Assembly (NCBI RefSeq): GCF_000018405.1
Contig: NC_009943.1
Location: 124,001 to 188,000 of the forward strand
Source of the DNA: Desulfosudis oleivorans Hxd3
GTDB taxonomy: Bacteria > Desulfobacterota > Desulfobacteria > Desulfobacterales > Desulfosudaceae
Direction: 5' to 3'
DNA: 64,000 nt
Shown: piece after piece, positions 45,341 to 49,331 of the stretch
Numbering within the stretch: the stretch's first letter is position 1
Layout: the number at the start of each line of letters is the position of its first letter
Notes under the pieces: generated by a model
Databases searched by the model: none
What the model saw: the letters and a program-made list of their open reading frames with translations, nothing else
What the model was told of the DNA's origin: nothing
Translations under genes and position numbers: made by a program

Positions 45341-45433
45341 TGGCGGAGAGAGAGGGATTCGAACCCTCGGTGCAGCTTTCACCACACACTCGCTTAGCAG
45401 GCGAGCGCCTTCGACCGACTCGGCCATCTCTCC
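45341..45433 (-). tRNA. tRNA-Ser (anticodon GCT)
   Basis: On the minus strand a 93-nt class II tRNA folds with acceptor GGAGAGA/TCTCTCC, anticodon loop CTGCTAA (GCT), a long variable arm, the TTCGAATC T-loop and an encoded CCA end. It reads serine AGC/AGU codons. Confidence 0.95.
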
Positions 45434-45444
45434 ATTTTGACGGC

Positions 45445-45530
45445 TGGCGGAGGAGGTAGGATTCGAACCCACGGAGCTTTCGCTCAACGGTTTTCAAGAC
45501 CGCCGCCTTCAACCGCTCGGCCACTCCTCC
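45445..45530 (-). tRNA. tRNA-Ser (anticodon TGA)
   Basis: On the minus strand an 86-nt class II tRNA with acceptor GGAGGAG/CTCCTCC, anticodon loop CTTGAAA (TGA), variable arm around GAGCGAAAGCTC, the TTCGAATC T-loop and an encoded CCA. It lies 11 nt upstream of tRNA-Ser(GCT) in one transcript. Confidence 0.95.
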
Positions 45531-45547
45531 TCGCTTTAAAGTTCCTA

Positions 45548-45576
45548 TCTATACCGTGCCGCGGAATTTACGTCAA
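45548..45576 (-). promoter_or_regulatory. Predicted sigma70 promoter of the tRNA-Ser pair
   Basis: On the minus strand TTGACG (45571-45576), a 17-nt spacer and TATAGA (45548-45553), 18 nt before the first tRNA. A near-consensus promoter. Confidence 0.65.
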
Positions 45577-45664
45577 TGTTTTTTTGGTTGTACTTTCAGT
45601 TGGACTGGTGTAGTCTTGAATGATACGGCAAGTTATGACAAACAGTTGCGTCACCGCCAAAAAA

Positions 45665-45682
45665 TGAATGAGCGTTCATTCA
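45665..45682. promoter_or_regulatory. FadR/TetR-type operator candidate upstream of fadN-fadA
   Basis: TGAATGAGCGTTCATTCA is an inverted repeat of TGAATGA around four bases, 47 nt before the fadN-like start codon. It closely resembles the TGAATGA...TCATTCA box of the TetR-family FadR of Bacillus, which represses the homologous fadN-fadA genes. The regulator here is unknown. Confidence 0.6.
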
Positions 45683-45728
45683 CTATGGTGTCAAGTTCAA
45701 CCTAAAATATATTACAGGAGGTTGTGTA

Positions 45729-48134
45729 ATGAGCAGAAAGATTAAAAAAGCCGCTGTCATCGGATCCGGCGTGATGGGCGGCGGCATCGCCGCGCTGCTG
45801 GCCAGCGCGGGCGTCGAGACCCTGCTGCTCGACATTGTTCCCTTTGATCTGACCGATGAGCAGAAAAAAGATCCCGCGGCACGGAACCGCATCGTAAAGT
45901 TCGGGTATGACACGATTATGATGTCCCGGCCCGCGGCCCTGATGCATTCGTCGGACGCGGCCCTGATCTCCATCGGCAACCTGGAGGACGATTTCGACAA
46001 GCTGGCCGACTGCGACTGGATCGTGGAGGTGGTAGTGGAGAACCTCAAGATCAAGCAGCAGCTGTTCAAGCGCATCGAACCGGTGCGAAAAAAGGGCAGC
46101 ATCATCTCCTCCAACACCTCGGGCATTCCCCTCAAGGCCATGTCCGAAGGCCTGAGTTCCGATTTTAAACAGCATTTTCTGGGCACTCACTTTTTCAACC
46201 CGGTGCGGTACATGCACCTTTTGGAAATTATCAAGGGTGAGGAGACCTCTGAAGAAGTACTCCGTTTCATGGCCGCGTTCGGTGAAAAGCGGCTGGGCAA
46301 AGGCATTGTGTGGGCCAAGGACACCCCCAACTTTATCGGCAACCGCATCGGGGTCCAGGGCATTGTCAAGGCCATGCAGCTGATGCTGGAGATGGGACTG
46401 ACCATTTCCGAGGCCGACGCCCTGTTCGGACCGGTCATGGGCCGGCCCAAGACCGCCATGTTCAAGACCACCGACCTGGTAGGCCTGGACACCATGAGCC
46501 ATGTGGCCAAAAACACCTATGACCTGGTGACCGACGACGAGGCCAGAGATGACTTTCTGACCCCGGACTTTGTTTCAACCATGATCGAAAAGAAGCTGCT
46601 GGGCAACAAGACCAAGGCCGGTTTCTACAAGACGGACAGAAGCCCGGAGGGCAAAAAGCTTCGCCTGGTGATCAATCCCGCCACTCTGGAGTATGAATCC
46701 GCCGGTGACGTGGATTTCCCCTGCATTGCCGATGCCAAGTCCAAAAAGACCCTGCCGGAAAAGATGAAGGCCATTGTGTACGGCGAGGACAAGGGCGCGG
46801 CCTACGCCTGGAAGGTGGTGGCGTCCGGTCTGATCTACGCGGCCAACCGGGTGCCGGAGATTTCCGATACCATCGTGGAGATCGACAATGCCATGAAGTG
46901 GGGCTACAACTTTGAAATGGGTCCCTTTGAAACATGGGATGCCATCGGCGTGGCCGAATCCGTGGCAAAGATGGAAAAGGACGGCCTGGCCGTTCCGGAA
47001 AAGGTCAAGAAGATGCTGGCCGACGGCAACCAGACTTTTTATAAGATCGAAAAAGGCCAGACCCTGTTTTATGATTTTGCCTCCGGGTCTTACAAGGCTG
47101 TGCCGGTAAGCGATGTGGCGGTTTCCCTGGCCATTCTCAAGGGAGAGGGCCGGGAGGTCAAAAGCTGCAAGTCCGCCTCCCTGATCGACCTGGGTGACGG
47201 CGTGTTCTGCTGCGAGTTTCACACCAAGATGAACGCATTGAACACCGAACTGATCGCCTTCATGCACGAGGCCATGGACTATGTGGATGCCAACGGCGCC
47301 GGCATGGTGCTGGGCAACCAGGCCGGCGGCATGCCCGGGGCCTTTTCCGCGGGCGCCGACCTCAAGGAGATCCTGACCGCTGTGGGCAACAAGGAGTTTG
47401 ACGGCATTGACACAATGATCGATTCCCTGCAGCAGGCCGTGCAGCGCGAGCGCTACTCCCACTTTCCCGTGGTGGCGGCACCCTACGGCATGGCCCTGGG
47501 CGGCGGCTGCGAGGTGTGCCTGGGCGCCGACCGGATCGTGGCCCATGCAGAGCTTTACATGGGCCTGGTGGAAATCGGGGTGGGCGTGCTGCCCGCCGGC
47601 ACCGGGTGCATGAACCTGTGGAAAAAGATGACCAGCGGCATTCCCGCGCCGGTGACCGACGCCGACCTGGCCAAGTTCTTCATTCCCACCTTCATGGCCA
47701 TTGCCATGGCCAAGGTGTCCATGTCCGCGGCCGAGGCCCGGGCCAACGGTTTTCTGGGGCCCAACGACAGAATCGTGTTCAACCGGGACAACCTGATCGG
47801 CGAGGCCAAAAAAGAGGTGCTGCGCATGATCGACGACGGTTACGCGCCGCCGGCCAAAAAGCCCCTCAAGGTGCTGGGCGAGGCGGCCTGGGGTATGGTC
47901 AACGCGGAAATTTTCAACATGCAGAACGGCGGCTATGTCAGCGAATACGACGCCTACCTGGCCAAAAACATTGCTTATGTCATTGCCGGCGGCGACGCCC
48001 GGACCAACAGCGAGCTGGATGAGCAGGCCATTCTCAACCTGGAGAGATCCATGTTTATCGAATTTCTCAAGCAGGAAAAGACCATGGCCCGCATCGAACA
48101 CATGCTCAAAACCGGCAAACCGCTTCGCAACTAA
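45729..48134 (+). CDS. 3-hydroxyacyl-CoA dehydrogenase / enoyl-CoA hydratase (FadN-like)
   Basis: 801 residues, with AGGAGG upstream. The dehydrogenase comes first: NAD-binding KAAVIGSGVMGGGIAALLA at the N-terminus and the catalytic histidine in LGTHFFNPVRYMHL. The hydratase follows (about 480-720) with AFSAGADLKEI forming the oxyanion site and ALGGGCEVCLGADRIVAHAE then VEIGVGVLPAGTG supplying the two glutamates. This dehydrogenase-first order is that of FadN rather than E. coli FadB. It performs the hydration and oxidation steps of beta-oxidation and is coupled to a thiolase 12 nt downstream. Confidence 0.94.
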   Translation: MSRKIKKAAVIGSGVMGGGIAALLASAGVETLLLDIVPFDLTDEQKKDPAARNRIVKFGYDTIMMSRPAALMHSSDAALISIGNLEDDFDKLADCDWIVEVVVENLKIKQQLFKRIEPVRKKGSIISSNTSGIPLKAMSEGLSSDFKQHFLGTHFFNPVRYMHLLEIIKGEETSEEVLRFMAAFGEKRLGKGIVWAKDTPNFIGNRIGVQGIVKAMQLMLEMGLTISEADALFGPVMGRPKTAMFKTTDLVGLDTMSHVAKNTYDLVTDDEARDDFLTPDFVSTMIEKKLLGNKTKAGFYKTDRSPEGKKLRLVINPATLEYESAGDVDFPCIADAKSKKTLPEKMKAIVYGEDKGAAYAWKVVASGLIYAANRVPEISDTIVEIDNAMKWGYNFEMGPFETWDAIGVAESVAKMEKDGLAVPEKVKKMLADGNQTFYKIEKGQTLFYDFASGSYKAVPVSDVAVSLAILKGEGREVKSCKSASLIDLGDGVFCCEFHTKMNALNTELIAFMHEAMDYVDANGAGMVLGNQAGGMPGAFSAGADLKEILTAVGNKEFDGIDTMIDSLQQAVQRERYSHFPVVAAPYGMALGGGCEVCLGADRIVAHAELYMGLVEIGVGVLPAGTGCMNLWKKMTSGIPAPVTDADLAKFFIPTFMAIAMAKVSMSAAEARANGFLGPNDRIVFNRDNLIGEAKKEVLRMIDDGYAPPAKKPLKVLGEAAWGMVNAEIFNMQNGGYVSEYDAYLAKNIAYVIAGGDARTNSELDEQAILNLERSMFIEFLKQEKTMARIEHMLKTGKPLRN

Positions 48135-48146
48135 GGAGGATTTAAA

Positions 48147-49331
48147 ATGAGAGACGCTTATATTGTTACATCGGTCAGAACACCGGGCTGCAAGAACCGG
48201 CGGGGCGCCCTGAAAGACACCCGCCCCGAGGACCTGATTTCCTTTATCATCAACGCGGCCATGGAAAAAACCGCGGGTCTTGAGAAAAAAGACGTGGACG
48301 ACCTGATGCTGGGCTGTTCCTTTCCCGAGGCCGAGCAGGGCCTGAATATCGGCCGTATTGCCGTCCAGATGGCCGGTTTTCCGGACCAGGTGTCCGGCGC
48401 CACGGTCAACCGTTTCTGCTCTTCCGGCCTGGAAGCCATTGCCCTGGCATCGCTGCGGGTCATGTCCGGCTGGTCGGACGTCACCCTGGGCGGCGGCGTC
48501 GAGTCCATGACCTACGTGCCCATGGGCGGCAACCTGCCCCGCCCTCATCCGGAATGGTCTCGCGAGCGGGCCGACTACTACGTGTCCATGGGCATCACCG
48601 CGGAAAACGTGGCCAACCGCTACAAAATTTCCAGAGAAGATCAGGACGCGTTTGCCTACCAGTCCCAGATGAAGGCCTCCAAGGCCAAGGCGGAAAAGCA
48701 GTACACTGAGATCGTTCCCACCCCGGCCACCAAATTTGTGAAGCAGGCCGACGGCACCGTCAAAAAGGAGACCTTTCTGCAGGACTTTGACGACGGTATC
48801 CGGGAGGCCACCACCGTGGAAGGACTGGCCAAGCTGCGGCCCGTGTTTGCGGCCGGCGGTTCGGTCACGGCGGGCAACTCCTCCCAGACAACGGACGGGG
48901 CTGCCGTTTCCGTCATCATGAGCGAAAACAAGGTCAAGGAGCTGGGCCTCAAGCCCATTGCCAAGCTCAAGATCTACACCACGGTGGGGTGCCGGTCCGA
49001 CGAGATGGGCGTGGGCCCGCGGTATGCGATTCCCAAGCTGCTGGACAAGGCCGGTCTGAAGGTCGAGGACATCGGCCTGTGGGAGATCAACGAAGCCTTT
49101 GCCTCTCAGGCCCTGTACTCTATCCGGGAGCTGGGGATTGACAAGTACATGGACCGGGTCAACATTCACGGCGGCGCCATTGCCCTGGGCCATCCTTTGG
49201 GCTGCACCGGCGCCAAGCTTTGCGCCACGTTGCTTGCCAACATGCAGGCCAGGGGCGTCAAGTACGGCGTGGAGTCCATGTGCATCGGCGGCGGCATGGG
49301 CGCGGCCGGCCTGTTTGAGCTGTGTGACTAA
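48147..49331 (+). CDS. fadA: Acetyl-CoA C-acyltransferase (3-ketoacyl-CoA thiolase)
   Basis: 394 residues, with AAGGAGG upstream. Nucleophile Cys in NRFCSSGLEA near residue 92, NEAFASQALY, the histidine in GHPLGCTGAK and the second cysteine in CIGGGMGAAG are all present. It cleaves 3-ketoacyl-CoA to acetyl-CoA and a shortened acyl-CoA. It forms a trifunctional beta-oxidation operon with the FadN-like gene and ends at a hairpin terminator. Confidence 0.95.
   Translation: MRDAYIVTSVRTPGCKNRRGALKDTRPEDLISFIINAAMEKTAGLEKKDVDDLMLGCSFPEAEQGLNIGRIAVQMAGFPDQVSGATVNRFCSSGLEAIALASLRVMSGWSDVTLGGGVESMTYVPMGGNLPRPHPEWSRERADYYVSMGITAENVANRYKISREDQDAFAYQSQMKASKAKAEKQYTEIVPTPATKFVKQADGTVKKETFLQDFDDGIREATTVEGLAKLRPVFAAGGSVTAGNSSQTTDGAAVSVIMSENKVKELGLKPIAKLKIYTTVGCRSDEMGVGPRYAIPKLLDKAGLKVEDIGLWEINEAFASQALYSIRELGIDKYMDRVNIHGGAIALGHPLGCTGAKLCATLLANMQARGVKYGVESMCIGGGMGAAGLFELCD

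Follow-up and report, generated by a model that had tools for sequence, protein, structure and literature searches.

A putative Bacillus-type FadR operator before fadN-fadA in the sulfate reducer Desulfosudis oleivorans Hxd3

The fadN-fadA locus and its palindrome

The window, that is the whole stretch of 64,000 nucleotides analysed (NC_009943.1, positions 124,001 to 188,000), carries two adjacent genes of fatty-acid β-oxidation on the plus strand, preceded by a short palindrome. The features of the locus are the following:

45635-45640, plus strand: a weak -35-like element, ATGACA, starting 30 bp 5′ of the palindrome (consensus match only)
45665-45682, no strand: putative FadR operator TGAATGA-GCGT-TCATTCA, with perfect 7-bp half-sites and a 4-bp spacer
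45716-45722, plus strand: Shine-Dalgarno-like AGGAGGT of fadN, read from the sequence
45729-48134, plus strand: fadN, an 801-aa 3-hydroxyacyl-CoA dehydrogenase / enoyl-CoA hydratase (best model NF052272)
48147-49331, plus strand: fadA, a 394-aa acetyl-CoA C-acyltransferase (thiolase), 12 bp downstream of fadN

The FadN product scores 566.7 bits against its best NCBIfam model, under the cut-off of 999, and FadA exceeds the cut-off of TIGR01930 (428.4 against 240.55 bits). The palindrome TGAATGAGCGTTCATTCA, which a preliminary description had placed upstream of fadN-fadA, is indeed present at 45665-45682, 46 bp 5′ of the fadN ATG; the label "Desulfobacterium-like" given there to the genome is a loose one. 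The box resembles what we take to be the FadR box of Bacillus, TGAATGA-N4-TCATTCA; the consensus and the target list of the B. subtilis regulator (YsiA) were reportedly established by Matsuoka in 2007.

Within the window the box is the sole match at up to three mismatches, itself having none, while a shuffled window yields a mean of 1.79 such matches. A sigma-70 scan of positions 45540-45740 returns one promoter-like site, TTCACT-18-TAAAAT at 45679-45708, which does not clearly stand out from shuffled sequence (one site; shuffles, mean 0.6, sd 0.9). The ATGACA element is poor, and its spacing is unlike that in the fadN promoters of relatives. A chance palindrome was considered and rejected on the counts in the window, in the genome and in 116 genomes, set against shuffles or a reversed control pattern. 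Directly 5′ of the fadN promoter lie two minus-strand tRNA-Ser genes (gct and tga, 45341-45433 and 45445-45530), and the letters of the one nearer fadN are also found 5′ of fadN in a genome of the same family (G070).

The candidate regulator and the other boxes of the genome

The preliminary description had proposed looking for a TetR regulator with a matching recognition helix, and such a protein is encoded far from the window, at G000:C1:2851938-2852543 (G000 being the Hxd3 genome). This candidate regulator, a TetR-family protein of 202 aa, has the FadR of Bacillus (3WHB/5GP9) as its closest sequence in the PDB (2.5e-39 by phmmer), the next other protein standing at 3.5e-16. The FadR query finds 30 TetR-like matches in the genome at E ≤ 1, FadR itself counted, and the next best of them reaches 4.4e-15. 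The recognition helix, GVADGTIYLYF, is the same as in B. subtilis FadR and is absent from the seven TetR paralogues of the genome that were compared. The helix-turn-helix part is identical to that of B. subtilis FadR at 32 of 48 positions, and the ligand part at 40 of 136 (29%). An AlphaFold2 (AF2) model (mean pLDDT 88.4, pTM 0.82) points the same way: ranks 1-13 of a Foldseek search are all Bacillus FadR entries (3WHB, 3WHC, 5GP9, 5GPA, 5GPC and 1VI0; TM 0.82-0.86 by query), with 1VI0, a regulator without title, counted as such since its matched stretch has the letters of 3WHB.

Against the equivalog model NF053878 (FATransRegFadRBac) the protein scores 196.5 bits (196.1 in the scan of the phylum) and misses the curated cut-off of 200 by 3.5, so it is not filed under that family. 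Arg109 of B. subtilis FadR, described as key for the conformational change in the available part of PMC13176608, aligns with an arginine in the Hxd3 protein. In four FadR relatives (L018, L021, L035 and L040) the position is occupied by histidine.

Other regulators of fatty-acid metabolism fit the protein less well. In Gram-negative bacteria, the proteobacterial PsrA, FadP and GntR-type FadR control fatty-acid degradation, the last belonging to a protein family separate from the TetR-type FadR of Hxd3 (PMC5343134, available part). PsrA was rejected as the family (NCBIfam NF053516, 19.2 bits, 8e-4, cut-off 300), and so was the FadR of Thermus thermophilus, which shares the TetR fold, an acyl-CoA ligand in crystals (3ANG/3ANP) and a similar job, yet gives a weaker structural match (Foldseek TM 0.62, 20% identity, ranks 26-27). 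The accessible text of PMC13176608 places Thermus FadR in another TetR subfamily than Bacillus FadR.

The box occurs in three exact copies in the Hxd3 genome (one contig, 3,944,167 bp). Besides the fadN-fadA copy, one stands in front of an acyl-CoA dehydrogenase gene and one in front of the TetR gene that opens fadR-fadE-ech. At up to two mismatches there are eight sites genome-wide, against two for the reversed control. The copy at 2852567-2852584 precedes fadR, which is followed by genes for a 601-aa acyl-CoA dehydrogenase and a 256-aa enoyl-CoA hydratase. The copy at 2624757 precedes the other acyl-CoA dehydrogenase gene (605 aa when read from the ATG) and is doubled, since a one-mismatch copy, the only one in the genome, starts 19 bp from the exact one. 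Both sites have TTGACA upstream and the box beside a possible -10. Exact boxes doubled at 19 bp, the same spacing, also stand before fadR elsewhere (L178, L181, L198 and G105:C4:9377-9413).

These further copies in front of fatty-acid genes support the reading of the palindrome, as first proposed, as an operator of the Bacillus FadR type, as far as sequence can speak to function. It counts against this reading that the three FadD matches of Hxd3, like its fadF (65% identical to a boxed fadF), have no box nearby, the best match at these loci showing four mismatches.

Another palindrome, TGACTGATGGATCAGTCA, lies outside the window at G000:C1:2822359-2822376. It has perfect TGACTGA half-sites and stands just 5′ of another TetR gene, a FadR-query match on the minus strand at 2821831-2822325. 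It is perhaps a related but different operator belonging to this TetR paralogue.

Distribution of the box and FadR in the order

A sample of 116 genomes was drawn from the order. Among the 81 with a strong fadN, the best 30 fadN loci were taken, and 29 were scored (the start was not found in L084). An exact box precedes fadN in 22 of the 29, the Hxd3 locus included, and inside fadN the best match has at least four mismatches in every one. At 17 of 19 exact-box fadN loci, a TTGACA-like -35 begins 26-28 bp 5′ of the box, a distance that sets the box against the -10 and the start region; the window locus is not among the 17. In two genomes of the same family, G070 and G111, the 300 bp leading up to fadN contain no box and nothing closer to it than a match with six mismatches, so the fadN site is patchy in the neighbourhood of Hxd3, having been lost twice, or lost and then regained.

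This patchiness is one ground for reading the window box as a relic or chance survivor, with fadN-fadA no longer, or barely, under FadR and the other two targets still controlled. The degenerate -35 of the window, set beside the 17 of 19 loci, goes in the same direction. However, the two half-sites of the box are without mismatch, the genome holds just three exact copies, and the exact box is the rule at the scored fadN loci of the order; we therefore hold a relic to be unlikely and keep to a functional operator as the reading of the site.

Across the sample, the exact box and FadR go together. There are 150 exact sites in 71 of the 116 genomes; the reversed control pattern matches exactly in a single genome of the 116. 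The box is present in 68 of 79 genomes with FadR versus 3 of 37 without (Fisher 2e-16, kinship ignored); when each family is represented by a single genome, this becomes 44 of 51 versus 1 of 22, and when the count is restricted to the 81 genomes in which fadN is strong, a box occurs somewhere in 57 of 66 versus 3 of 15. In these counts the FadR match of G115 (79 bits, 33% identity) was scored as negative, which makes 79 rather than 80 positive genomes, and partial matches in G037 and G060 were retained as positives. Two of the three genomes with a box and no FadR, G018 (85% complete) and G081 (75% complete), carry the box at fadN; in the third, G115, no fatty-acid gene was found beside the box (L105). 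The exact box is absent from 11 of the 79 FadR genomes, in which the best match within 260 bp before fadR shows one mismatch (3 genomes), two (2), three (3), four (2) or six (1).

The same co-occurrence bears on whether the box might be bound by another TetR protein of Hxd3, for instance by the window TetR at about 62.6-63.0 kb or by that near G000:2822000, with FadR a bystander. TetR-like genes are many, as the 30 query matches indicate, and the one at 2821831-2822325 has a palindrome related to the box just upstream. Against this stand the association of box and FadR over the 116 genomes, the Bacillus FadR helix found in FadR alone among the eight TetR proteins of Hxd3 compared, and the fact that fadR is the only gene of Hxd3, enzyme genes apart, to be fronted by an exact box. 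The window TetR (L010), which the preliminary description had already set apart, shows 26% identity across part of its length and has a different helix. Binding by another TetR is thus very improbable, and FadR remains the preferred regulator.

The targets were classified for the 75 exact sites listed, out of 150. At 29 of these, fadR begins within 400 bp downstream, and 21 precede fadN; one of the remaining 25 is the Hxd3 dehydrogenase site, and the other 24, in other genomes, were examined. At 12 of the 24, a FadF-like iron-sulfur oxidoreductase (CCG + Fer4) and a FadD-like AMP-binding ligase lead away from the box; FadF alone is found at five and FadD alone at one, and two sites, in genomes of the same family, front the orthologue of the boxed acyl-CoA dehydrogenase. 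Alongside the last four (L105, L106, L125 and L126) stood none of the fatty-acid genes tested.

Desulfococcus multivorans DSM 2059 (G010, one contig of 4,455,399 bp) allows the boxes to be compared with protein data. Only three exact boxes are present: at 3188678, before fadR2 with an acyl-CoA dehydrogenase gene; at 3193530, in the gap between fadD and fadF-etf, 48 bp before fadF; and at 1033239, before fadN-fadA. FadR2 belongs to the same regulator group as the Hxd3 protein (57% identical), and the boxes at fadR2 and fadNA are shared; the third box is at fadD/fadF in D. multivorans and at the second acyl-CoA dehydrogenase gene in Hxd3, whose fadF has no box. According to the available part of PMC5109826, FadD5, AcdA9, FadA and FadB, with genes at 3.19 and 1.03 Mbp, were assigned to myristate from myristate-specific protein formation; FadR2 was detected specifically in myristate-adapted cells and suggested as a possible mediator of that formation, and FadF and EtfA5B5 were constitutive. 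The measured protein formation fits the boxes except at fadF-etf, because FadF-EtfA5B5 is constitutive despite the box. That study, in its available part, names no operator. In the literature covered, mostly without subscription papers and partly in excerpt (PMC5343134, PMC6449355, PMC5109826 and PMC13176608 included), such an operator in Desulfobacterota was not found, which is no proof of absence.

A possible shared module across phyla and the proposed control

On a wider scale, the best 80 of at least 512 FadR relatives were taken from a scan of species genomes, with phylum labels assigned by the analyst from record titles; the peptide patterns of the scan select for the helix, so its conservation among the 80 is partly built in. 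In 63 of the 80 loci the 260 bp upstream of fadR include an exact box, six more have one mismatch and 11 neither, while elsewhere in these loci there are two exact boxes in 486,776 bases. By phylum, the exact box precedes fadR in 26 of 35 loci of Desulfobacterota/delta, 32 of 34 of Bacillota, four of nine of Acidobacteriota and one of two of Calditrichota/KSB1 (the KSB1 one). Counted on the same 80 named loci, the promoter spacing differs: a TTGACA-like -35 begins 26-28 bp 5′ of the fadR box in 18 of the 26 exact-box loci of Desulfobacterota/delta, and 35-37 bp 5′ of it in 20 of the 32 of Bacillota.

Ten whole genomes were also searched, hand-picked as FadR holders, nine of them with an exact fadR box, so that box presence there is no test; fadN was found in nine of the ten. 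An exact box stands 20-158 bp before fadN in Bacillus zhangzhouensis, Parageobacillus thermantarcticus, Brevibacillus porteri, Metabacillus halosaccharovorans and a Pyrinomonadaceae bacterium; for an Acidobacteriota bacterium the distance is 313 bp. Paenibacillus tyrfis and a Vicinamibacteria bacterium have no box directly before fadN and a boxed fadR within about 3 kb; no box was found at fadN in Oceanobacillus caeni. Thus, a box with the half-sites and spacer of the window box occurs before both fadR and fadN in Bacillota genomes.

In the phylum of Hxd3, FadR-like genes (E ≤ 1e-20) are present in 186 of 297 genomes, and the NF053878 cut-off is passed in 26 of the 297. A FadR tree of 93 rows (quick method, SH-aLRT only, unrooted) puts the classified Bacillota rows on one side of a supported branch (99), while the Hxd3 protein falls among 54 rows of Desulfobacterota, Acidobacteriota, Calditrichota and KSB1 behind another (99), a split that disfavours recent transfer from Bacillota. 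The preliminary description had left the choice between conserved and transferred regulation: a recent transfer is improbable for Hxd3, and deep inheritance and very old transfer both fit, the root of the tree being unplaced.

Two other families of the phylum supply five FadR proteins (L143, L144, L148, L150 and L152) that the tree places on the side of the Bacillota, close to Alicyclobacillus. Their branches are long and their position is flagged by the program as unsure; a transfer of this group is possible. They have high NF053878 scores and FANK after the helix, and upstream of L143, L144, L148 and L150 the best box match has at least five mismatches. Five loci (L193-L197; Desulfobacteraceae, Desulfobacterium, Desulfamplus) form a FadR clade (support 100) without a box at zero or one mismatch: L193, L195 and L196 have a core ATGAAT-N4-ATTCAT instead, and L194 and L197 nothing clear.

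A recent acquisition of the module from a Bacillus-like donor, which the identical half-sites and target genes of Bacillota and the five proteins beside Alicyclobacillus on their long, unsure branches might suggest, is hardly credible given the supported branches (99, in a quick tree with SH-aLRT only) between the Hxd3 FadR and classified Bacillota, the 29% identity of the ligand part to that of B. subtilis and the wide spread of FadR-like genes in the phylum. It is somewhat more probable than otherwise that FadR, its operator and a β-oxidation set including fadN make up one control module across Bacillota, Desulfobacterota and Acidobacteriota, either handed down from a very ancient ancestor or passed as a unit between phyla in the distant past; FadR and operator are also present in one KSB1 genome.

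Several features are shared with the FadR regulon of B. subtilis. The box, the recognition helix, the FadR fold (predicted here) and the targets fadN, fadA and acyl-CoA dehydrogenase genes are the same, and in relatives of Hxd3 the targets fadD and fadF as well. The differences are that Hxd3 is a Gram-negative anaerobic sulfate reducer, that its operon has the layout fadR-fadE-ech, that the ligand part of its FadR has diverged, and that, in Desulfobacterota/delta, the -35 of fadR lies closer to the box than in Bacillota. Boxes before β-oxidation genes, the helix with the predicted fold, and a box at the regulator's own gene, all of them found in Hxd3, are among the features that membership in a Bacillus-type FadR regulon entails, as would be binding of the box by the regulator and its release by long-chain acyl-CoA.

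We assign a probability of about 0.9 to the reading that the palindrome before fadN-fadA is the operator of the Bacillus-type TetR FadR encoded elsewhere in the same genome; the computed sites, the kinship and predicted fold of the regulator, the co-occurrence of FadR and box, and the like pairing of box and genes in other phyla make it, in all likelihood, a functional FadR operator in a regulon held in common with Bacillus. Binding by FadR, repression and acyl-CoA as the ligand are what we infer. A FadR dimer would most likely occupy the box, close to the -10 and to the start region, and keep fadN-fadA from being transcribed; it would also repress its own operon, with the 601-aa dehydrogenase and 256-aa hydratase genes, and act through the doubled box on the second acyl-CoA dehydrogenase gene. 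When the cell activates fatty acids, the resulting long-chain acyl-CoA would release the repressor, and β-oxidation would be switched on.

What the analysis adds to the preliminary description is the regulator gene, the further sites and the breadth of the distribution. The main surprise is a TetR operator whose letters are kept constant across phyla while the ligand part of FadR has diverged. The box is a site that can be searched for in any genome of the group, and it suggests an explanation, open to testing, of the myristate-specific proteins measured in Desulfococcus multivorans. With FadR, a likely main switch is named for the breakdown of long-chain fatty acids in sulfate reducers, and perhaps of alkane-derived acyl-CoA too.
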